Translations under genes and position numbers: made by a program
Notes under the pieces: model-generated
Database searches by the model: none
The model's input: the letters and a program-made list of their open reading frames with translations, nothing else
Told to the model about the DNA's origin: nothing
Assembly: GCA_027484385.1 (NCBI GenBank)
Contig: JAIXTB010000140.1
Span: 1-43,178, forward strand
Direction of reading: 5' to 3'
From: Neisseriaceae bacterium
Lineage (GTDB): Bacteria; Pseudomonadota; Gammaproteobacteria; Burkholderiales; Chromobacteriaceae
DNA length: 43,178 nucleotides
Shown: positions 8,913 through 21,717 of the stretch, one piece after another
Layout: every line of letters starts with the position of its first letter
Numbering within the stretch: position 1 is the stretch's first letter

Positions 8913-9012
8913 TGCCGGGAAGATGCTTCCGTGGAAGTTAAATCCCGGCGGCAAGCCCTTGCCAAATCAGGTAAAATTCCGTTTTTTCCCCTTCTTGACG
9001 GAATCAGCCTCC

Positions 9013-9501
9013 ATGATCGAAGTTGGCATCGTGATGGGTAGTAATAGCGACTGGGAAGTCATGCAAAACGCCGCGCGCGTTCTGAAAGACTTCGGCATCG
9101 CTTTCGAAACCCGCGTCGTCTCCGCCCACCGTACCCCCGACCTTCTGTTCCAGTACGCCGAAACCGCCGAAGCGCGTGGCCTGAAAGCCATCATCGCCGG
9201 TGCCGGTGGCGCCGCCCACCTGCCGGGCATGCTGGCCGCCAAGACCCACATCCCGGTACTGGGCGTGCCTGTACCGTCCAAATACCTGCGTGGTGAAGAC
9301 TCGCTGCTGTCCATCGTGCAAATGCCCAAAGGCATTCCCGTGGCCACTTTCGCCATTGGCGAAGCCGGTGCGGCCAACGCTGGCCTGTTTGCCATCGCCA
9401 TGCTGGCCAATGGCAACCCCGAGCTGGCGGCCAAGCTGAAGGCCTTCCGCAAGCAACAAGAAGACACCGTGCTGGCCATGAGCCTGCCGGAGGTACAGTA
9501 A
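9013..9501 (+). CDS. purE: N5-carboxyaminoimidazole ribonucleotide mutase PurE
   Basis: 162 residues from the ATG at 9013; the ORF track start at 8923 adds 30 unconserved residues. Class I PurE converts N5-CAIR to CAIR in purine synthesis. Visible motifs are [14 protein letters not shown] (phosphate-binding loop), [11 protein letters not shown] (catalytic His region), [14 protein letters not shown] and [19 protein letters not shown]. The stop overlaps the purK start (TAATG), so the two enzymes of the bicarbonate-dependent step are made together. Contains an uptake-like 10-mer. Confidence 0.96.
9369..9378 (+). repeat. Uptake-like 10-mer TGCGGCCAAC (copy 5)
   Basis: Exact copy in purE, read as Ala-Ala-Asn. 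Confidence 0.85.
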
Positions 9502-10631
9502 TGGCTGCCATTTTGCCGCCAGCCATGCTGGGCATCCTCGGCGGTGGCCAGCTGGGCCGCATGTTTGTTACCGCCGCCAAGCGCATGGGCTACCGCGTGA
9601 CCGTGCTGGACCCGGACGCCAACGCCCCGGCAGCCGAGTTTGCCGATGTACACCTGTGTGCCGCGTTTGACGATGCCGACGCCCTGGCCACGCTGGCGCG
9701 TACCTGTGCCGCCGTGACCACCGAGTTTGAAAACGTTAACGCCGACGCCATGCGCCTCTTGGCCAAGACCACCCGTGTATCGCCATCCGGCGACTGCGTG
9801 GCCATTGCCCAGGATCGCATTGCCGAAAAGAGCTGGGTAGGCAAAGCCGGCCTGCCTACCGCGCCGTATCTGGCGATTGAAAGCGTGGAAGACATCCAGG
9901 TCGAGCTGTCGCCCTACTTGCCCGGCATTCTCAAGACCGCCCGCCTGGGCTACGACGGCAAAGGCCAGATGCGCGTAAAAACCGCCGACGAAGCCCGCGC
10001 TGCCTACGCCAACCTGGGCGGCCAGGCCTGCGTGCTGGAAAAAATGCTGGACCTGAAGCTGGAAGTCTCGGCCATTGTTACCCGCACCAGTGCGGCGCAA
10101 GTGGCGGTGTTCCCGGTATCGGAAAACATCCACAAGAACGGCATTCTGGACGAATCCATCGTGCCGGCGCGCATCGCGCCCGAGTTGGCCGCACGGGCAC
10201 AGCAGTACGCCGTGCAGCTGGCCGAAGCGCTGGACTACGTGGGCGTACTGGCGGTGGAGTTCTTCGTGCTGGGCGACGATAGCCTGGTGGTCAACGAAAT
10301 GGCGCCGCGCCCGCATAACTCCGGCCACTACACCATCGACGCCTGCGTCACCGACCAGTACCAGCAGCAAGTGCGCGCCATGTGCGGCCTGCTGCCGGGC
10401 AAGACAGACCTGCTGTCGCCGGTGGTCATGGTGAACCTGCTGGGCGATGTGTGGGGCGAGGACGGTAGCGAGCCGAACTGGGCGGTGCTGATGGAAGCGC
10501 CCAACGCCCACCTGCACAGCTACGGCAAAAAACACGCCCGGCCAGGCCGCAAGATGGCGCACTACTGTGTGCTGGCGGCCAACGTAGACGACGCGCTGGA
10601 ACAGGCGCGCGCGCTGAAAGACACCTTGTAA
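9501..10631 (+). CDS. purK: N5-carboxyaminoimidazole ribonucleotide synthase PurK
   Basis: 376 residues. ATP-grasp enzyme that carboxylates aminoimidazole ribonucleotide with bicarbonate and ATP, giving N5-CAIR for PurE. Visible are the N-terminal loop MLGILGGGQLGRMFV, the ATP-grasp core with LKTARLGYDGKGQMRV, VLEKMLDLKLEVSAIVTR, and the metal-binding stretch FVLGDDSLVVNEMAPRPHNSGHYTIDAC. The start overlaps the purE stop by one base. A strong terminator follows, 10 bases after its stop, separating it from purC. Confidence 0.96.
   Translation: MAAILPPAMLGILGGGQLGRMFVTAAKRMGYRVTVLDPDANAPAAEFADVHLCAAFDDADALATLARTCAAVTTEFENVNADAMRLLAKTTRVSPSGDCVAIAQDRIAEKSWVGKAGLPTAPYLAIESVEDIQVELSPYLPGILKTARLGYDGKGQMRVKTADEARAAYANLGGQACVLEKMLDLKLEVSAIVTRTSAAQVAVFPVSENIHKNGILDESIVPARIAPELAARAQQYAVQLAEALDYVGVLAVEFFVLGDDSLVVNEMAPRPHNSGHYTIDACVTDQYQQQVRAMCGLLPGKTDLLSPVVMVNLLGDVWGEDGSEPNWAVLMEAPNAHLHSYGKKHARPGRKMAHYCVLAANVDDALEQARALKDTL
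10184..10193 (-). repeat. Uptake-like 10-mer GTTGGCCGCA (copy 6)
   Basis: Exact copy in purK, read as Leu-Ala-Ala (TTG-GCC-GCA). Confidence 0.85.
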
Positions 10632-10685: not shown

Positions 10686-11552
10686 ATGACCCAACTGACC
10701 AGCCTGAAAAAAATCTACTCGGGTAAAGTACGCGACCTGTACGAGATCGACGATCAGCGCATGCTGATGGTGGCCAGCGATCGCCTGTCCGCTTTCGACG
10801 TGATCCTGGACGACCCTATCCCAGGCAAGGGCCAGATCCTCACTGCCATTTCCAATTTCTGGTTCGATACCCTGAAAGACGTGGTGCCCAACCACCTGAC
10901 CGGTGACCAGGTAGAAGACGTGGTCGCTGCTGCCGAGCTGCCGCTGGTCGCCGGCCGAGCCGTGGTGGCCAAACGCCTGAAGCCGGTGATGATCGAGGCC
11001 GTGGTACGCGGCTACCTGGCCGGCTCCGGCTGGAAGGAATACCAGAAGTCCGGCACGGTATGCGGCATTGCTCTGCCGGCCGGCCTGCAGGAATCCAGCA
11101 AGCTGCCCGAGCCTATCTTTACCCCGTCTACCAAGGCGGCAGTAGGCGACCACGACGAAAACATTACCTTTGCCCAGTGCGAAGCCATCGTGGGTGCCGA
11201 GCTGGCGGCCAAGGTGCGTGACACCGCCATCCTGCTGTACCAGACCGCTGCCGCTTTTGCTGCCACGCGTGGCATTATCATCTGCGACACCAAGTTCGAG
11301 TTTGGCCTGGATGCCGACGGCACCCTGGTGCTGATGGACGAAGCGCTGACGCCGGACTCCAGCCGTTTCTGGCCGGCCGACAGCTACGCTGAAGGCACCA
11401 CGCCGCCGTCGTTCGACAAGCAGTTCGTACGCGACTGGCTGGAGGCTTCCGGCTGGAACAAAGCACCGCCAGCCCCGGCCGTACCGCTGGACGTACGCGA
11501 AAAAACCGCGGCCAAATACCGCGAGGCGCTAGAGCGCCTGACCGCACAGTAA
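10686..11552 (+). CDS. purC: SAICAR synthetase PurC
   Basis: 288 residues from the ATG at 10686, preceded by GAAGGAAG. It condenses CAIR with aspartate and ATP to SAICAR, the step after PurE. Motifs: [93 protein letters not shown] and [13 protein letters not shown]. The length fits the longer (about 290 residue) PurC type rather than the 237-residue E. coli form. It lies 54 bases after purK with a terminator between. A terminator also follows it. Confidence 0.96.
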
Positions 11553-11580: not shown

Positions 11581-11602
11581 GCCCGCCTTGCGCGGGCTTT
11601 TT
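11581..11602 (+). terminator. Rho-independent terminator after purC
   Basis: GCCCGC / GCGGGC stem with a five-base loop, followed by TTTTTC. Confidence 0.7.
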
Positions 11603-11668
11603 CATGCCTGGTTGCCGCACTGGTGGCATACTTGCGTTTTTATCGAATTTGCCAAGGGAGTAGCTCAT

Positions 11669-12250
11669 ATGGCCCGTAGCCAGCCCGCGCTCAGCACCGC
11701 CCGTTTACAGCTTTTGCCGCCAGAAGCGGCCTGGGCCCGCGCCGTTCGCGACTACCAGCTGCGTAACCGCGAGCACCTGGCCCCGTGGGACCCGACCCAC
11801 GGCGATATGTACTTCACCGAGCTGTTCTGGGGCATGCGCCTGCGCGAACGCATCGAGGATTTCAAGCTGGGCCGCGGTGCCATGTTTCTGGTGATGCACG
11901 ACAAGCAGCCAGGGCAAGTGATCGGCACTATCGCCCTGAGCAATATTGTGCGCGGCGTGTTTCAGGCCTGCCACCTGGGCTACAACATCGACCATGCCTA
12001 TCAGGGGCAGGGCATGATGAGCGAGGCCGTCGAGGCGGTGGTGCAGTTTGCCTTCCGCGACCTGGGCCTGCACCGCGTACAGGCCAACTATCAGCCGGAA
12101 AACCAGCGCAGCGCGCGCCTGCTCGCCAAGCTGGGCTTTACCATTGAAGGCGAGGCCAAGGATTATCTGTTCCTGAACGGTGCCTGGCGCGACCATGTGC
12201 TGACCTCGCGCCGCAACCCGGATTTTGACAGCACGCCGCTGCGCGCCTGA
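11669..12250 (+). CDS. rimJ: RimJ-type ribosomal-protein alanine N-acetyltransferase
   Basis: 193 residues from the ATG at 11669, with AAGGGAG eight bases upstream. GNAT-fold acetyltransferase. The pattern closely follows E. coli RimJ as I remember it: NREHLAPWDP, GTIALSNIVRGVFQACHLGYNID, YQGQGMMSEAV (acetyl-CoA loop), VQANYQPENQRSARLLAKLGF and EGEAKDYLFLNGAWRDHVLTS. RimJ acetylates the N-terminus of ribosomal protein S5 in E. coli; another protein N-terminus could be the target here. It appears to be a single-gene unit between two hairpin/intergenic regions. Confidence 0.83.
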   Translation: MARSQPALSTARLQLLPPEAAWARAVRDYQLRNREHLAPWDPTHGDMYFTELFWGMRLRERIEDFKLGRGAMFLVMHDKQPGQVIGTIALSNIVRGVFQACHLGYNIDHAYQGQGMMSEAVEAVVQFAFRDLGLHRVQANYQPENQRSARLLAKLGFTIEGEAKDYLFLNGAWRDHVLTSRRNPDFDSTPLRA

Positions 12251-12316: not shown

Positions 12317-12344
12317 TTGGCGGATTTTTTGCATGCGTTATGAT
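12317..12344 (+). promoter_or_regulatory. Candidate sigma-70 promoter for the sbtA-sbtB pair
   Basis: TTGGCG (-35) and TATGAT (-10) separated by 16 bases, about 30 bases before the sbtA start. Identified by eye only. Confidence 0.5.
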
Positions 12345-12373
12345 GTGGCCTCTTCATCATGCAAGGTGTTCCG

Positions 12374-13306
12374 ATGACCCTAGACCCTGTCGTGCTGTTT
12401 TTCGTGCTGGGCTTGCTGGCTGCGCTGGCCAAGTCCGATCTTAAACTCCCCCCCGCGCTCTACGAGACCCTGTCGGTGTTTCTGCTGATTGCTATCGGTT
12501 TGAAGGGGGGCGTGGCCTTGTCCAAGCTTTCTGGCAGCGCGGTACTGTGGCAGGTGGTAGCGGTGATCCTGCTGGGCGCGGCGCTCACGCTGCTGGCTTT
12601 TGCCGTGTTGCGCTGGCGTCTGGGCCGGGCGGATGCGGCGGCCACGGCGGCGCATTATGGCTCGGTGAGTGTGGTGACCTTTGCCGTAGCCAGTGCTTAC
12701 CTGTCACGTCAGGGCGTGGAGGCCGAGCCGCAGCTCACCGTGTTTCTGGCGGTTATGGAAATGCCGGCGCTGGTGGTTGGCGTGCTGCTGGCCCGCATGG
12801 GTGGCGACAAGCGCGTGAACTGGGGCCGCCTGGCGCACGAGGTGTTTCTGGGCAAGAGCATGGTGCTGCTGATGGGGGGCTTGCTGATAGGCTGGATCGC
12901 CGGCGCGGAGGGCATCAAAAGCCTGTCTCCGTTGTATATCGATATGTTCAAGCCGGTGTTGTCGCTGTTTTTGCTGGAAATGGGTTTACTCACCGCGGGC
13001 AAGCTGGCCGGCCTGCGTGCCCAGGGGCTGTTTGTCGTGGCCTTTTCCACGCTGATGCCGCTGCTGTTTGCCTGCCTTGGCCTGGCGGCAGCGGTGGGCA
13101 TGGGCTTGTCGGTAGGCGGTGCCATGCTGCTGGCCACCCTGTGTGCCTCGTCATCCTATATTGCCGCCCCCGCTGCCATGCGTATTGCCGTGCCGGAAGC
13201 CAACCCGGCCATATCGCTGGCAGCCAGCCTGGGGGTCACCTTCCCGTTTAACCTGTTGCTCGGTATACCGCTGTACCTGTGGTTGGCACAGCAGGTTTAC
13301 GCCTGA
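12374..13306 (+). CDS. sbtA: SbtA-family sodium-dependent bicarbonate transporter
   Basis: 310 residues from the ATG at 12374 (AAGG seven bases upstream); the ATG at 12359 is possible. A hydrophobic protein with about ten membrane helices in two similar halves. The N-terminus (VLFFVLGLLAALAKSDLKLPPALYETLSVFLLIAIGLKGGVAL) and GSVSVVTFAVASAYL and CASSSYIAAPAAMRIAVPEANPAISLAASLGVTFPFNL are characteristic of the SbtA family (Pfam PF05982). Cyanobacterial members import HCO3- with Na+; the substrate in heterotrophs is less certain. It is followed after 11 bases by a small PII-like protein, the known regulator of SbtA, which supports the assignment. Shorter than the roughly 370-residue cyanobacterial form. 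Confidence 0.86.
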   Translation: MTLDPVVLFFVLGLLAALAKSDLKLPPALYETLSVFLLIAIGLKGGVALSKLSGSAVLWQVVAVILLGAALTLLAFAVLRWRLGRADAAATAAHYGSVSVVTFAVASAYLSRQGVEAEPQLTVFLAVMEMPALVVGVLLARMGGDKRVNWGRLAHEVFLGKSMVLLMGGLLIGWIAGAEGIKSLSPLYIDMFKPVLSLFLLEMGLLTAGKLAGLRAQGLFVVAFSTLMPLLFACLGLAAAVGMGLSVGGAMLLATLCASSSYIAAPAAMRIAVPEANPAISLAASLGVTFPFNLLLGIPLYLWLAQQVYA

Positions 13307-13317
13307 AAGGAAGCTCG

Positions 13318-13620
13318 ATGCCATTTCATACTAAGAAGCTGCTGACGATTGTTACCGAGTCTGTGCTGGAGGCACGGCTGGTCAAAGATATCCAGCGCCT
13401 GGGCGCACATGGCTACACCGTGGTGGATGCACGCGGTGGCGGCGCGCATGGCGTGCAGGGCGGGGCGTGGAGTTTCGACCGCAATATCCGCATCGATGTG
13501 GTATGCGATGCGCAGGTGGCCGAGGCGATTGCACGCCGTTGTGAACAAAGCTATCTGCCGGATTACGGTTTGATCCTGTATGTTTCGGATGTAGGGGTGC
13601 TACGCGCAGACAAATTCTAG
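13318..13620 (+). CDS. SbtB-like PII signalling protein
   Basis: 100 residues from the ATG at 13318, preceded by AAAGGAAG. It resembles the PII-like superfamily, with a ferredoxin-like fold and a flexible T-loop: KKLLTIVTESVLEARLVKDIQRLGAHGYTVVDARGGGAHG is beta1-alpha1-beta2 with a glycine-rich T-loop base, and DYGLILYVSDVGVLRADKF closes the fold. In cyanobacteria SbtB binds adenine nucleotides and gates SbtA. This protein lacks the C-terminal cysteine-containing extension of cyanobacterial SbtB, so redox control by that loop is not expected. Its place directly behind sbtA is the strongest argument for function. Confidence 0.8.
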   Translation: MPFHTKKLLTIVTESVLEARLVKDIQRLGAHGYTVVDARGGGAHGVQGGAWSFDRNIRIDVVCDAQVAEAIARRCEQSYLPDYGLILYVSDVGVLRADKF

Positions 13621-13650
13621 TGCGAGCCTGCCAGACATCAGGGGGAAAAC

Positions 13651-14565
13651 ATGACGCAAACCTTTCGTTTGACCGCCAGTGATGGTGCCGATATTCATGG
13701 TTGCTATTGGCTACCCGCTGGTGAACCACGCGCGGTGGTGGTGATTAGCCATGGCATGAGCGAGTACGGCGGGCGCTATCAGGTGCTGGCACAAAAGCTG
13801 TCGCTGGCCGGCTACGCGGTGTATGCCCACGACCACCGCGGCCATGGTGAGCATGCGCCGGTTCCCGGCTGGTTTGCGGAGCAAGGTGGCTGGCAGAAGG
13901 TGGTAGATGATCTGCGCGAGGTGGTGGACTACGCCCGGCAGCAGCACGAGCGCCCGGTCGTGTTGTATGGCCACAGTATGGGCAGCTTTATTGCACGGGC
14001 GTTCATGCTGCGTTACGGCCAACGTTTGTCCGGGCTCGTACTGTCTGCCACGGGCTACCGCCAGCGCTACCTGTCGCGTGTGATGCGTGGTGTCGCCAGG
14101 CTGGCGGCCCGGTTGGGCGGGGCAAATAAGCCCAGTACCTTCATGACGGCGCTGGTGTTCGGCAGCTTCAATCTGGGGTTTTTACCCGCCCGTACCCGGC
14201 TGGATTGGCTAAGCCGCGACCCGGCGCAGGTGGATGCCTATATTGCCGACCCCTTATGTGGCCAACATCCCACCCCGCAGCTGTGGATCGATCTGTTTGG
14301 CGGCATTATCGAGCTGGAGCTGGGTGAGGCCGATGGCCGCGCGCTGCCCAAGGCCTGTCCGGTGTGGCTACAGGCCGGCAGCCGCGACTCGGTAAGCCTG
14401 GGCAAGTTTGGTCTGGGCCAGCTGGCCAGCCGCTACCGTGCAGCGGGCATGCGGGATGTGAGCGTTACCGTCTACCCGGGCGGGCGGCACGAAATGCACA
14501 ATGAAACCAACCGTGCCCAGCTGGAGGCAGATTTGCTGGCCTGGCTGAACCGCATTACCGCCTGA
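13651..14565 (+). CDS. Alpha/beta hydrolase, monoacylglycerol-lipase/lysophospholipase-like
   Basis: 304 residues, ATG at 13651 after GGGGGAA. Serine hydrolase of the S33/Hydrolase_4 type: VVVISHGMSEYGGRY carries the oxyanion HG motif, YAHDHRGHGEH is typical of monoacylglycerol lipases, VLYGHSMGSFIA holds the nucleophile Ser, an Asp is in LQAGSRDSVS, and the His is in YPGGRHEMHNE. No signal peptide, so it is probably cytoplasmic and acts on lysolipids or monoglycerides; the substrate cannot be fixed from sequence. It follows the PII-like gene by 30 bases and may share its transcript. A bidirectional terminator follows. Confidence 0.85.
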   Translation: MTQTFRLTASDGADIHGCYWLPAGEPRAVVVISHGMSEYGGRYQVLAQKLSLAGYAVYAHDHRGHGEHAPVPGWFAEQGGWQKVVDDLREVVDYARQQHERPVVLYGHSMGSFIARAFMLRYGQRLSGLVLSATGYRQRYLSRVMRGVARLAARLGGANKPSTFMTALVFGSFNLGFLPARTRLDWLSRDPAQVDAYIADPLCGQHPTPQLWIDLFGGIIELELGEADGRALPKACPVWLQAGSRDSVSLGKFGLGQLASRYRAAGMRDVSVTVYPGGRHEMHNETNRAQLEADLLAWLNRITA

Positions 14566-14579
14566 GCCGTGTTAGTCGT

Positions 14580-14616
14580 AAAAAAAGCACCGTCGTGTCA
14601 GACGGTGCTTTTTTTG
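14580..14616. terminator. Bidirectional terminator between convergent genes
   Basis: AAAAAAAGCACCGTC-GTGTCA-GACGGTGCTTTTTTT: a strong GC stem with an A-run on one side and a T-run on the other, so it can stop transcripts from both the hydrolase and the carbonic anhydrase gene. Confidence 0.88.
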
Positions 14617-14632
14617 TGCCGTGGTGGCCCGT

Positions 14633-15190
14633 TCAGCCTTTGGCCACGATTTGCTGCACGCTGCCATCCAGCGCCATCAGGTAGGTTTCTACCGCCAGCT
14701 GCGGGTATTTGGCCAGAATCTGCTTGCGTAGCGTCATCAGGGTTTCGGCATGGGTCTGCGTTTCTTTCTCCGGCATTTTGCCAAAGTCCTCGCCCAGTAC
14801 CACTTTGTAGGCGCCGCAGTCGCGGTGGTCCAGAATCATCACCTTGTGGATATGGTGCAGGCTGATCGCTACATCCAGGTGCTCCCAGAATGCCTGGTTC
14901 CAGGCGGGGAACTTGCTGGTGATCGCCCCCAGTGCCGCCCCGGCCAGTACGATATGGTCGTACTTGTTCTTCATGCCTTGCCCGGCCATGAAGGCTTCGG
15001 TTTCATCGACCAGCCGGTAGTCCATGCATGACAGCAGCAGCGCATCGGTGCCACCGGCAGCGTAGGCCGCTTGCGGCAGGAAGCTGCCCAGCAGGGCTGC
15101 GCCGCCGCCCAGGGCGGCAAGCTGTACAAACTGGCGACGGCCAGGGTTGGCCGCAGCATCCTGCTGTGCGTGGTTGGGGCACTGGCACAT
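14633..15190 (-). CDS. Probable Tat-exported beta-carbonic anhydrase
   Basis: 185 residues, ATG at 15190 with GGGAG eight bases upstream. The N-terminus has a twin-arginine-type signal: GRRQFVQ at 17-23, a hydrophobic stretch (LAALGGGAALLGSFL) and a possible cleavage site after AAYA. The mature part has the beta-carbonic anhydrase zinc motifs: SCMDYR (Cys55, Asp57, Arg59) and DHRDCGAY (His122, Cys125). It would interconvert CO2 and bicarbonate outside the cytoplasm. The domain is short and divergent, so catalysis is probable, not certain. An unusual CQCPNH cluster precedes the twin arginine. Convergent with the sbtA-sbtB-hydrolase genes and sharing their terminator. Confidence 0.8.
   Translation of the reverse strand: MCQCPNHAQQDAAANPGRRQFVQLAALGGGAALLGSFLPQAAYAAGGTDALLLSCMDYRLVDETEAFMAGQGMKNKYDHIVLAGAALGAITSKFPAWNQAFWEHLDVAISLHHIHKVMILDHRDCGAYKVVLGEDFGKMPEKETQTHAETLMTLRKQILAKYPQLAVETYLMALDGSVQQIVAKG
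15146..15155 (-). repeat. Uptake-like 10-mer GTTGGCCGCA (copy 8)
   Basis: Exact copy in the carbonic anhydrase gene; on its coding strand read as Ala-Ala-Asn. Confidence 0.85.
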
Positions 15191-17761: not shown

Positions 17762-18586
17762 ATGGCCAAAAAATTCCTGCTGCTATGCCTGACTGCCTGC
17801 TGCCTGTCACCCTTGGCGCAGGCGGCGGATATGCTGGTGCTGGGTGTGGTGCCGTACTTGTCGGCACGCAAGCTGGCCGAACTGTACGAGCCCATGCGTA
17901 CCCAGCTGCAAGGTGCCTTGGGTGTGCCGGTGGTCATCGAGTCGGCACCGGACTACCAAAGCTATCTCGAACGTACTGCCCAGGGCCGCTACGACGTGAT
18001 TGCCACGTCTCCCTACTTCGGCCGCCTGGCGCAGCTGGAACAAGGCTACGAGCCGCTCGCCCGCCCGCAAACCAATCTTGAGCCCCTGCTGGTGACCCGC
18101 AAGGACGGCGTGAATTCGCTGGAAGCCCTGCGTGGCAAAGTGGTTTCCACCAGCGACAAGCTGGCCAACCTGACGTTGGCCGCACAGCGCTACCTGATCC
18201 AGAACGGCCTGACCCCGGGCAAGGACGTCACCATCCGCCCTGCCGGCAGCCATGCCAACTCGGTACAGGCGCTGCTGAACGGTGAATCTGCCGCCGCCAT
18301 CATTTCGGTTACCGCCTTGCGCCAGTTACACCCCGGCACCACGGTACGTGTGCGCATCATGAAACGCCTGCCGCAGACTACCCCATTGCTCTACCTGGCC
18401 AACAAGCGACTAGGCAGCAGCCGTATCGACAGCCTGCGTCGCCAGCTGTTCCAGTTTGCCAATCACACCGAGGAAGGCCAGGCGTTCAGTAAAGAGCTGG
18501 GGCATGGCGGTCTGAAAGAGATCTCTGCTGCTGACATGAAGGCGCTGGATCCGTATGTGCAGGATTTGAAGGCGATGCTGAAATAA
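17762..18586 (+). CDS. PhnD-like periplasmic substrate-binding protein
   Basis: 274 residues, ATG at 17762 with AAAGGAA upstream. A signal peptide (KKFLLLCLTACCLSPLAQA) is followed by a periplasmic binding fold of the phosphate/phosphite/phosphonate type: LVLGVVPYLSARKLAELYEPMRTQL, YDVIATSPYFGRLAQ, LEALRGKVVSTSDKLANLTLAAQRYL, and AAAIISVTALRQL. No ABC permease or ATPase is nearby. Instead the stop overlaps the start of a GGDEF-EAL membrane protein (TAATG), so it most likely delivers a ligand signal to that protein. Ligand unknown; phosphonate is only the family name. Contains one uptake-like 10-mer. Confidence 0.85.
   Translation: MAKKFLLLCLTACCLSPLAQAADMLVLGVVPYLSARKLAELYEPMRTQLQGALGVPVVIESAPDYQSYLERTAQGRYDVIATSPYFGRLAQLEQGYEPLARPQTNLEPLLVTRKDGVNSLEALRGKVVSTSDKLANLTLAAQRYLIQNGLTPGKDVTIRPAGSHANSVQALLNGESAAAIISVTALRQLHPGTTVRVRIMKRLPQTTPLLYLANKRLGSSRIDSLRRQLFQFANHTEEGQAFSKELGHGGLKEISAADMKALDPYVQDLKAMLK
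18175..18184 (-). repeat. Uptake-like 10-mer GTTGGCCGCA (copy 9)
   Basis: Exact copy in the PhnD-like gene, read as Leu-Ala-Ala (TTG-GCC-GCA). Confidence 0.85.
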
Positions 18587-21500
18587 TGGCCATTGACCTG
18601 CGGCCGCGTTCGCTGACCTGGATCATCATTCCGGCCTTGTTCGTGGTGCAGCTGCTGCTGTTCGGCATTATTGCCTGGCAGAGCGTGCACATGATGCGCG
18701 AAATGGCGGTGGAGCAAACGCGCGTGCGCCTGGGCAGCCTGCAGGTAGAGCTGCGCGCCGCACTGGTGGCACCCATGCTGGAGCGCGACTACAGCACACT
18801 GCAGGAAATTACCGACGAGCTGACCCGCTCCAGTGACCTGGCCTATCTGGTGGTGCGTGATAGTGCGGGCAAGATCATGGCCCGCAGTGGCATACAGATT
18901 CAGCGCTTTACGCCCGATAGCGATATTGCCGGCAGCAACGACCCCTTGTTCGATACCCGATTCCCGCTGACACAGGGCGAGGTACAACTGGGTTTGCGCG
19001 TGGCCGAGGCGCGGCAGATCTTTCTGAGCTTCATCCAGCGTACCGCGCCAATGGTGGTGGTGGCGGGTTTGCTGGCCACCATCTGGATGGTCTTGGTCAC
19101 GTTATGGATTGTGCGGCGGCTGAAGCGTTTGACCCAGGCAGCCGAATCGCTCGGCCATGGCACCTTGTCGGTGCGGGCGCCGGAAGACGGGGCAGATGAG
19201 GTGGGCCGTCTGGGCCTGGCCTTTAACCGTATGGCGGCTGCGGTACAGTCGGCAGATGAAAAGTGGGCCAAGAGCCAGCGTTTCACCGACATGCTGTTGC
19301 TGGCCATGCCCATGCCGGTGTTTTACAAGGATGCACAAGGGCGCTACATGGGCTGTAACGATGCCTTTGCGCGCGTTACCGGCCTGAGCCGGCGCGATAT
19401 TCGTGGCAAGGTGGCCGCCGAGCTATGGCCCGCCGAGTTGGCCGCACTGCACATGCGGCACGATGAGGCACTTAACGCTGGCCTGGGGCATCAAGAGTAT
19501 GCCGGCTTGCTGACCGACCAGCACGGCCTGCAGCGCCACGTGATTTTTTCCAAGGATGTGTTTTACGACGATCTGGGTCAGATCGCCGGCATTATCGGTG
19601 CCTGGAACGATATTTCCGATCTGCGCCGCGCCGAAGGCAGGTTGCAGCTGTTGGCCGGGGTGTTCAAGCACTCGCGTGAAGGCATTGTGATTGCCGATGC
19701 CAGCGGCAGGGTGGTGGATGTCAACCGTGCGCTATGCGAGATCAGCGGTTTCGAGCGCGACGAAGTCGTCGGGCAAATGCCCAGCCACTTTTATTCAGGC
19801 CGGCACGACGAGGCGTTCTATCAGGCCATCCGTACCACCCTGGGCCAGAAAGGCCATTGGCAGGGCGAAGTGTGGAACCGGCGCAAGGATGGCAGCCTCT
19901 ATCCGGTGCTGCTATCGATCTCCATCATTTACGACCAGCAGGGCCTCGTGCGCCATTACATTGCCGTGTTTGCAGATATCACGGTGATGAAAGAGCAGGA
20001 AGCCCGGCTGGACCGCATGGCGCACCACGATCCGCTTACCCAGCTACCGAACCGCGTGTTGCTGGGCGACCGCATGCGTGTCGCCATTGCCCAGGCCAGC
20101 CGCAGTGGCCAATGGCTGGCCATCTGTTTTATGGACCTGGACGGTTTCAAACGCGTCAACGACCGCTATGGCCACGATGTAGGCGACCAGCTACTGATCA
20201 AGATTGCCGACCGCTTGCAGCAGACCATGCACGGTGGCGATACCGTGGCACGGCTGGGTGGTGATGAATTTGCGCTGCTGTTATCCGGCCTGCCCGATAT
20301 CGAGGCCTGCCACCAGACGCTGCATCACATTCTGGACACCGTCGCGCAGCCCTGCGATATCGGTGATATCCAGATACAAGTATCAGCCAGTATCGGCGTC
20401 ACACTGTACCCGCAGGACGAGCAGGATGCCGATACCCTGCTGCGCCATGCCGACCAGGCCATGTACAAAGCCAAAGACCTGGGGCGCAACGGCTACCAGA
20501 TTTTTGACGCCGAGCACGACCGCCAGAGTCGCAGCCGCCTGCAAAGCCTGCACCGGCTGGAGCAAGCACTGGAGCAGGGCGAGCTGCAGCTGTACTACCA
20601 GCCCAAGGTCAATATGCGCGACGGGCAGATCGTGGGCATGGAAGCCCTGATGCGCTGGCACCACCCCCAGCGTGGCGTGCTGGCCCCCGGCGCCTTTTTG
20701 CCGGAGGTGGAAGATAGCCAGCTGGATATCCGCCTGGGCGAGTGGGTGATTGCTACAGCACTACAACAAATGGCGCAGTGGCGTGGTGAAGGGCGGGTGC
20801 TGTCGGTCAGTGTGAATATCTCCGCCCACCACCTGCAGCAGTCGGATTTTGCCGCCCGTCTGGCCGGCCTGCTGGATGCTCACCCGGATGTGCCACGCGG
20901 CATGCTGGAAATCGAGGTGCTGGAGAGTACGGCGCTATCTGATGTGGAGCACGTTGGCCGCCTGATGCAAACCTGCCAGGGGTTGGGGGTACGTTTCTCG
21001 CTAGATGATTTCGGTACCGGCTATTCGTCCCTGCTGTATCTGAAACGCCTGCCGGCTGACAAACTCAAGATTGACCAGTCGTTTATTCGTGGCATGCACG
21101 AAAGCAGCGACGACCTCGCTATCGTGCAGGGCATTATCGGGCTGTCTGAAGCCTTCAACCGTGAGCTGGTGGCCGAGGGGGTAGAAACCGTCGAGCACGG
21201 CAGCCTGCTATTGCACCTGGGCTGCGACGTGGCACAGGGCTACGGCGTAGCCAAACCCATGCCGGCTGGCGAGGTGGTGGCCTGGTGCCGTAGCTGGCAT
21301 AGCCCGCCGGAGTGGCTGGCGGCGCGCAAGCGCTGGTCGCAAGAAGACATCTTCCTGTTTGGCCTGGAGCTGAACCTGCGCAGCGCCTTGTCGCACCTGC
21401 TGTCCCTGGCCCAGGAACCGGGCGTGGCGGGGTGTTGGGACGACGATGTCAGCGAGCGCTTTTTGCGCTGGTACGGCACCGACGGCCAGATGCGCTACGG

Positions 21501-21717
21501 TGGCCACGCCAGCTTTGCCCAGCTGGGCCAGCTGCAGTCTTCCCTGATGCTGCATTGCCAGCAGCTGTGGCAAGCCTGCCAGCTGGGCGACGATGAAGCG
21601 ATCCAGCAGCATATCCCCGTTATTTTCAGCCTGCGCCAGCAGCACGAGCAGGCGGTGCACAGCCTGCTATCGGGTATGCCACGGCTGCGGGAAGACAACC
21701 ACAGCCTGCCTTTATAG
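18586..21717 (+). CDS. Membrane-bound PAS-PAS-GGDEF-EAL cyclic-di-GMP enzyme
   Basis: 1043 residues. Two membrane helices (about 11-31 and 154-176) flank a periplasmic domain of about 120 residues; then HAMP (177-225), two PAS domains (about 232-350 and 352-465), GGDEF, EAL and a C-terminal tail. RLGGDEF (558-562) is intact, so diguanylate cyclase activity is possible. The phosphodiesterase motifs are also intact: EAL (686-688), DDFGTGYSS (807 on), KIDQSF and VAEGVET. It may make or break c-di-GMP, or favour one. The 140 residues after EAL are helical, with His, Cys and Trp residues (SHLLSL, GCWDDD, MLHCQQLW); I could not assign them. Translationally coupled to the PhnD-like protein, its probable periplasmic input. 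Confidence 0.92.
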   Translation: MAIDLRPRSLTWIIIPALFVVQLLLFGIIAWQSVHMMREMAVEQTRVRLGSLQVELRAALVAPMLERDYSTLQEITDELTRSSDLAYLVVRDSAGKIMARSGIQIQRFTPDSDIAGSNDPLFDTRFPLTQGEVQLGLRVAEARQIFLSFIQRTAPMVVVAGLLATIWMVLVTLWIVRRLKRLTQAAESLGHGTLSVRAPEDGADEVGRLGLAFNRMAAAVQSADEKWAKSQRFTDMLLLAMPMPVFYKDAQGRYMGCNDAFARVTGLSRRDIRGKVAAELWPAELAALHMRHDEALNAGLGHQEYAGLLTDQHGLQRHVIFSKDVFYDDLGQIAGIIGAWNDISDLRRAEGRLQLLAGVFKHSREGIVIADASGRVVDVNRALCEISGFERDEVVGQMPSHFYSGRHDEAFYQAIRTTLGQKGHWQGEVWNRRKDGSLYPVLLSISIIYDQQGLVRHYIAVFADITVMKEQEARLDRMAHHDPLTQLPNRVLLGDRMRVAIAQASRSGQWLAICFMDLDGFKRVNDRYGHDVGDQLLIKIADRLQQTMHGGDTVARLGGDEFALLLSGLPDIEACHQTLHHILDTVAQPCDIGDIQIQVSASIGVTLYPQDEQDADTLLRHADQAMYKAKDLGRNGYQIFDAEHDRQSRSRLQSLHRLEQALEQGELQLYYQPKVNMRDGQIVGMEALMRWHHPQRGVLAPGAFLPEVEDSQLDIRLGEWVIATALQQMAQWRGEGRVLSVSVNISAHHLQQSDFAARLAGLLDAHPDVPRGMLEIEVLESTALSDVEHVGRLMQTCQGLGVRFSLDDFGTGYSSLLYLKRLPADKLKIDQSFIRGMHESSDDLAIVQGIIGLSEAFNRELVAEGVETVEHGSLLLHLGCDVAQGYGVAKPMPAGEVVAWCRSWHSPPEWLAARKRWSQEDIFLFGLELNLRSALSHLLSLAQEPGVAGCWDDDVSERFLRWYGTDGQMRYGGHASFAQLGQLQSSLMLHCQQLWQACQLGDDEAIQQHIPVIFSLRQQHEQAVHSLLSGMPRLREDNHSLPL
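19437..19446 (-). repeat. Uptake-like 10-mer GTTGGCCGCA (copy 10)
   Basis: Exact copy in the GGDEF-EAL gene (first PAS), read as Leu-Ala-Ala (TTG-GCC-GCA). Confidence 0.85.

Follow-up and report, generated by a model that had tools for sequence, protein, structure and literature searches.

Why would a bacterium in which no RuBisCO is detectable carry a predicted bicarbonate transporter with a regulator-like partner, of the kind best known from cyanobacteria? The question is raised by a 43,178-nucleotide stretch of contig JAIXTB010000140.1 (assembly GCA_027484385.1), from a freshwater member of the Chromobacteriaceae deposited as Neisseriaceae bacterium; this whole stretch is called the window here. 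It encodes an SbtA-family transporter and, immediately downstream, a PII-like protein of the SbtB type. We found that the two genes (sbtAB) form one conserved unit that recurs beside purine synthesis genes in the order Burkholderiales, and we consider it probable that they encode a Na+/bicarbonate importer gated by adenylates and feeding housekeeping carboxylations, that of PurK above all. The genes on which this argument turns are the following.

8923..9501, plus strand: purE, N5-carboxyaminoimidazole ribonucleotide (N5-CAIR) mutase (TIGR01162, E=3.8e-65, over cut-off); the true start is probably 3' of 8923
9501..10631, plus strand: purK, N5-CAIR synthase, a bicarbonate-consuming ligase (NF004677, E=6.6e-178, and TIGR01161, both over cut-offs)
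10686..11552, plus strand: purC, phosphoribosylaminoimidazolesuccinocarboxamide (SAICAR) synthase (NF010568, E=5.7e-144)
12374..13306, plus strand: predicted SbtA-family Na+-dependent bicarbonate transporter (PF05982, E=1.9e-110; Synechocystis SbtA, 7cye, E=4.8e-25)
13318..13620, plus strand: PII-like SbtB-type regulator of 100 residues, without a C-terminal CGPxGC loop (PF00543, E=2.5e-21)

The transporter scored 369.5 bits against PF05982 (cut-off 27), covering positions 1-308 of 308, and an 11-base gap separates its gene from that of the PII-like protein. Among the 80 best relatives from named genomes, a PII-like gene was clear directly 3' of sbtA in 78; one more had a weak partial match, and in the remaining one the contig ended just after sbtA. 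Because the genes are adjacent in 78 to 79 of 80 relatives, far above chance, sbtA and the PII-like gene are one conserved two-gene unit. Both were missing from one Vogesella genome (G010) and from two genomes of another genus in the family (g7), which kept purEKC and the genes for a GNAT protein, a hydrolase, a carbonic anhydrase and an old yellow enzyme (OYE) homologue. An earlier sequence-only reading of the window had recognized this transporter and partner, and the profiles and the adjacency bear it out; it was also right to call SbtAB best known from cyanobacteria. The family is nevertheless not unusual here: of 349 genomes sampled evenly from the order, 105 scored above the PF05982 cut-off. 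At the 99 sbtA loci read from that sample, the PII partner was present at 46 and absent at 53, and the SbtA tree mostly separated PII-linked from PII-less genes. Two further arrangements were noted: one genome of family f2 had three tandem sbtA-family genes without a PII gene (G128:C51:2158-5375), and a DUF6671 protein adjoined sbtA-PII in an Arthrobacter (L091 4872-5747), with a look-alike at the same place in a distant member of the order from family f15 (L155 402-1283).

We found purE-purK-purC upstream of sbtA in the window, purK being three genes upstream, and sbtAB stood 3' of purE-purK-purC in all Chromobacteriaceae-type loci read; V. indigofera DSM 3303 has this pur-sbtAB order as well. 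In the even sample of the order, pur genes lay within about 6.5 kb of 15 of the 46 PII-linked sbtA loci, from 5 of 13 families, versus 0 of the 53 PII-less loci. The slots elsewhere were after tsaC (f29), in the purK-purC gap or after purC (one f46 genome each), right after purK (f11) and in the purC-tsaC gap (f15); the identities of PurK, PurE and TsaC were checked with curated models on representatives. Mapped onto the SbtA tree, the pur-linked state requires at least four changes. PurK uses HCO3-, and cyanobacteria mutated in purK depend on high CO2 (PMC10880623). A limited literature search found no report of sbtAB-pur linkage; the repeated purine context, mostly in bacteria without detectable RuBisCO, seems new, while the kind of system is already known.

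The host's closest named relatives are Vogesella, its SbtA being 95-96% identical to those of V. aquatica and strain L13. Its draft genome (3.47 Mb, 334 contigs, 98.7% complete) gave no PF00016 match for a RuBisCO large chain, and none was found in the other sampled members of the family, which leaves a RuBisCO-serving carbon-concentrating mechanism no detectable enzyme to serve. The organism had been presumed a heterotroph, and as regards the Calvin cycle this holds. The host is no exception among carriers of the pair, as 28 of the 46 sampled PII-linked loci were in genomes without detectable RuBisCO. The proposal that imported bicarbonate may feed carboxylases is likewise supported as probable, with the nearby purK, which the sequence-only reading had not mentioned, as the likelier consumer. 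Another carbon supply, DabA (PF10070), was not found in the host genome; within the family, one of the 14 genomes with sbtAB had it, versus 11 of the 23 without (one of the 11 broken; Fisher p=0.013, uncorrected for kinship). This distribution fits sbtAB and DabA being two interchangeable carbon supplies, much as MpsAB has been described as a bicarbonate source for a non-autotroph (PMC6689103).

Under the explanation that we favor, SbtA would reside in the inner membrane and import bicarbonate driven by sodium, while the PII-like protein would form a trimer that binds adenine nucleotides and whose T-loop can plug SbtA. The pair would thereby raise the bicarbonate level of the cytoplasm to serve everyday carboxylations, first of all that of PurK. 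Carbamoyl-phosphate synthase, acetyl-CoA carboxylase and TsaC, which also uses bicarbonate, are plausible further consumers. A more specific version, in which sbtAB of the purine-linked lineages is dedicated to supplying the purine pathway with substrate, and the PII-like protein reads adenine nucleotides as end products and closes the importer, giving feedback control of purine synthesis via bicarbonate, strikes us as unlikely and is offered tentatively.

How far can the cyanobacterial model be carried over to these proteins? Two of the residues that contact bicarbonate in Synechocystis SbtA, S114 and S324, are kept in the window protein as S104 and S266, and these serines are invariant in the alignment. 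The other two contacts of cyanobacterial SbtA1, Y140 and S327, are replaced by L130 and A269, and at these positions no tyrosine or serine occurred in any of 137 non-cyanobacterial rows. The window SbtA did not group with cyanobacterial SbtA: in the tree, a branch with a length of 2.08 changes per column cut off the two cyanobacterial plasmid SbtAs. With a very distant transporter, half of the substrate-site residues different and the redox loop (R-loop) of SbtB absent, the pair, judged by its sequence, is not cyanobacterial SbtAB proper. Bicarbonate is nonetheless the substrate that homology suggests. Sbt and Sbt-CS of Thiomicrospira pelophila rescue carbonic anhydrase-less Escherichia coli and raise its internal inorganic carbon (PMC12628692). 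In Microcystis, it seems that a divergent SbtA-like protein of cyanobacteria cannot take the place of SbtA (PMC11890772), whereas SbtA2 proteins are active bicarbonate transporters when placed in E. coli (PMC13249358). Autotroph loci of the window's own clade (16-17 of them, from Thioalkalivibrio, Hydrogenophilus, Thiobacillaceae and similar bacteria) had sbtAB near cbbQ, cbbO-like, ParA-like and LysR genes; a Cereibacter PF05982 gene outside that clade adjoins cbbLS.

The PII-like protein matched 2cz4 (TTHA0516) at E=3e-22 and cyanobacterial SbtB at E about 3e-10. Its AlphaFold model (mean confidence score, pLDDT, 87) matched 2cz4 and SbtA-bound SbtB (7egk), and the match probability to SbtB structures was 1.00, which gives it a PII fold close to that of SbtB. 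The C-terminal CGPxGC R-loop, present in some SbtB only, is absent, the protein ending in VGVLRADKF. The T-loop base RGxGxHG is conserved, the model lacks confidence at the T-loop tip, and there is no R-loop; adenine-nucleotide binding and plugging of SbtA are therefore assigned to the protein by homology, as predicted properties. Residue 47 (window 13318-13617), in the T-loop region, is Gln; 60 of 79 aligned proteins carry Arg at this position.

The remaining features of the locus bear on where the unit ends and whether the neighboring carbonic anhydrase belongs to it.

11588..12250, plus strand: GNAT N-acetyltransferase between purC and sbtA, a neighbor that is probably unrelated (PF13302; absent in Craterilacuibacter)
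12317..12344, plus strand: promoter-like site 5' of sbtA, TTGGCG-16-TATGAT (consensus scan only)
13651..14565, plus strand: alpha/beta hydrolase in the same operon direction as sbtAB (PF12146, E=8.7e-54)
14580..14615, no strand: symmetrical intrinsic terminator A7-GCACCGTC-GTGTCA-GACGGTGC-T7 between the convergent units (read from the sequence; scan match 14591-14607)
14633..15190, minus strand: beta-carbonic-anhydrase-like protein (Pro_CA_2) with a twin-arginine translocation (Tat) signal (PF20393, E=2.3e-9, over cut-off; invariant motifs)

These coordinates and profile matches confirm the previously described layout of sbtA, PII-like gene, hydrolase gene and convergent carbonic anhydrase gene. 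For sbtA there is an in-frame upstream ATG at 12359; the start at 12374 is likelier because AAGG at 12363-12366 lies seven bases ahead of it and relatives align from that methionine. The promoter-like site is kept in the nearest Vogesella and missing from V. margarita, V. alkaliphila and V. indigofera, and the Vogesella comparison revealed no genus-wide conserved promoter 5' of sbtA; Rfam gave no RNA elements near the operon. A gap of 30 bases separates the PII-like gene from the hydrolase gene. We rejected the hydrolase as a member of the unit: it persists in genomes without sbtAB, and the loci of Craterilacuibacter and Crenobacter do not include it.

The carbonic anhydrase itself had been called probably Tat-exported, and its features agree with this. 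Read by eye, its N-terminus (GRRQF...QAAYA-A) combines, as Tat signals do, RR-x-F with a hydrophobic stretch and an AxA site, RR and F being invariant; the beta-type zinc-site pattern (C-x-D-x-R, H-x2-C) is present, and C55, D57, R59, H122 and C125 are invariant in seven aligned proteins. PF20393 was over its cut-off and PF00484 just below (23.8 bits versus 25.7), and the structure model was poor (pLDDT 57), its top matches being all beta-carbonic anhydrases but at E>0.001. The host encodes at least three beta-type proteins. Besides that of the window, there are a 351-residue protein with a signal-like N-terminus and canonical CADSR/HAVCG residues, and a 195-residue protein without a signal; the host draft yielded no counterpart of the strong canonical enzyme that most other Vogesella have. 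The 351-residue protein (G000:C131, L243 317-1372) also has a long Ala/His-rich N-terminal region. For the genus, we rejected the idea that SbtAB stands in for carbonic anhydrase, as most sbtAB-bearing Vogesella also carry a canonical beta-type enzyme. G010, a Vogesella genome without sbtAB, has DabA with a strong canonical beta-carbonic anhydrase about 400 bases away (G010:C16:36515-39626, L245).

Could the exported enzyme hydrate CO2 in the periplasm and SbtA import the product, the three genes forming one working cluster, as the sequence-only reading had proposed? Most Calvin-Benson-Bassham autotrophs with transporters for dissolved inorganic carbon (DIC) also have an extracellular carbonic anhydrase (PMC10880623), and among the 13 Vogesella genomes the gene adjoins sbtAB in six, as it does in Craterilacuibacter. 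However, the two proved separable when gene neighborhoods were compared in relatives, the check which that reading had itself suggested: the linkage of sbtA to the PII-like gene was conserved, and that to the carbonic anhydrase was not. In four SbtA-bearing Vogesella the carbonic anhydrase segment is inverted, placing the gene about 14 kb from sbtAB; the segment comprises the carbonic anhydrase, OYE, PhnD-like and GGDEF/EAL genes, with one breakpoint between hydrolase and carbonic anhydrase (G002, G004, G005, G011; L024, L025, L029, L033, L063, L064), so that the enzyme's gene travels with those neighbors. Gulbenkiania and Crenobacter have sbtAB and no carbonic anhydrase at the locus. Conversely, the carbonic anhydrase is present without SbtA in two Vogesella and two genus g7 genomes (G010, G012, G031 and G035), and in G010 and another genus the hydrolase persists with it. 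A relative on an Azospirillum thermophilum plasmid has no sbtA beside it, and plasmid searches found relatives of both proteins, never side by side. The terminator, usable in both directions, lies between the hydrolase and carbonic anhydrase genes. Because of this two-way terminator, the inversion in four Vogesella, the persistence without sbtAB and the second beta-carbonic anhydrase with its signal-like start, we do not count the enzyme as part of the sbtAB unit, and we rejected it from gene order in relatives as a conserved part of the system. It is probably an independent transcription unit, adjacent by happenstance in part of the genus, and the joint cluster is very improbable. On the far side of the enzyme, the genes of a PhnD-like periplasmic binding protein and, immediately after it, a membrane PAS-GGDEF-EAL protein (17762-21717) stay together in most of the genus; the two are likely to be a periplasmic sensor for cyclic di-GMP signaling. 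The OYE gene of G010 is interrupted (L059, about 10000-10200) by sequence with a translation resembling adapter read-through (ASDVYKKK), probably an assembly artefact.

Two other explanations concern the transporter. SbtA might be a general bicarbonate importer that lies near the pur genes only through inheritance of gene order, with no bearing on function, which we regard as possible, if rather unlikely. The purE-purK-purC block, often with tsaC, is stable in the order and an inserted cassette may stay in it; Chromobacteriaceae loci have one slot in common, and many PII-linked loci lie elsewhere. Against this, the SbtA tree contains four separate pur-linked groups, the linked loci use four or five different slots, and the rough chance of 5 of 13 families being linked is 2e-9 if families are independent, which they are not fully. 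The other explanation, that the SbtA homologue works as an exporter or moves a different small carboxylate, formate for instance, with a role in anion tolerance or pH balance instead of bicarbonate import, is distinctly improbable. A point mutation in Shewanella oneidensis SO_3758 leads to formate tolerance, with efflux fitting its authors' model better (PMC12093963), and two bicarbonate-contact residues are replaced throughout the window's clade. By our reading of the alignment, however, SO_3758, with V99-S100-A101, resembles the PII-less clade and not the window's (GSVSVV); moreover, DIC builds up in E. coli carrying Sbt-family proteins from a proteobacterial autotroph, and the window's clade adjoins RuBisCO-associated genes in autotrophs.

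Several observations weigh against an importer feeding PurK. Besides the replaced Y140 and S327 contacts, bicarbonate transport is ascribed to the exact clade of the window SbtA by homology, and the host's signal-less beta-carbonic anhydrase could turn imported bicarbonate back to CO2. The well-supported (starred) branches of the tree force only two changes of pur state; the linkage is possibly inherited gene order, with counts made dependent by relatedness; and of the 28 PII-linked sbtA genes from genomes without detectable RuBisCO, 18 lie away from pur genes. Even so, we hold the adenylate-gated importer to be probable. SbtA-SbtB is usually discussed within photosynthetic carbon concentration, yet a similar pair is common here without detectable RuBisCO, repeatedly beside the bicarbonate step of purine synthesis. 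If PurK is the consumer, this would give a concrete, testable reason for heterotrophs to retain bicarbonate importers under regulation. It would also offer a setting simpler than cyanobacteria in which to study what the PII partner senses.

Compared with cyanobacterial SbtA-SbtB (slr1512-slr1513; TC 2.A.83), the window pair shares the transporter family, the gene order, a PII-like partner and the invariant crossover serines S114, S322 and S324. It differs in the very long branch that sets its clade off from the two cyanobacterial plasmid SbtAs, in the two replaced contacts, in a PII partner without the R-loop and nearer Thermus TTHA0516, and in a purine context in place of photosynthesis. Cyanobacterial SbtA2-SbtB2 (SbtA-like/SbtB-like), compared by description only, offers a second divergent SbtA family that has a PII-like partner and is bicarbonate-active (PMC13249358). 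Sbt/Sbt-CS of T. pelophila, likened by family and not by clade, are also proteobacterial SbtA-family proteins and import DIC in E. coli (PMC12628692), but their host is a carboxysome-bearing autotroph. The MpsAB/DAB (PF10070) pumps are unrelated proteins, with DabA not found in the host genome; like the proposed importer, they supply bicarbonate to carboxylases in non-autotrophs, and they seem to substitute for sbtAB within the family. CPII of Thiomonas (5d4n-5d4p), at about 24% identity and with a much weaker sequence match than SbtB, is a PII-like protein with bicarbonate-bound structures, and it is a structural match to the window's PII model.

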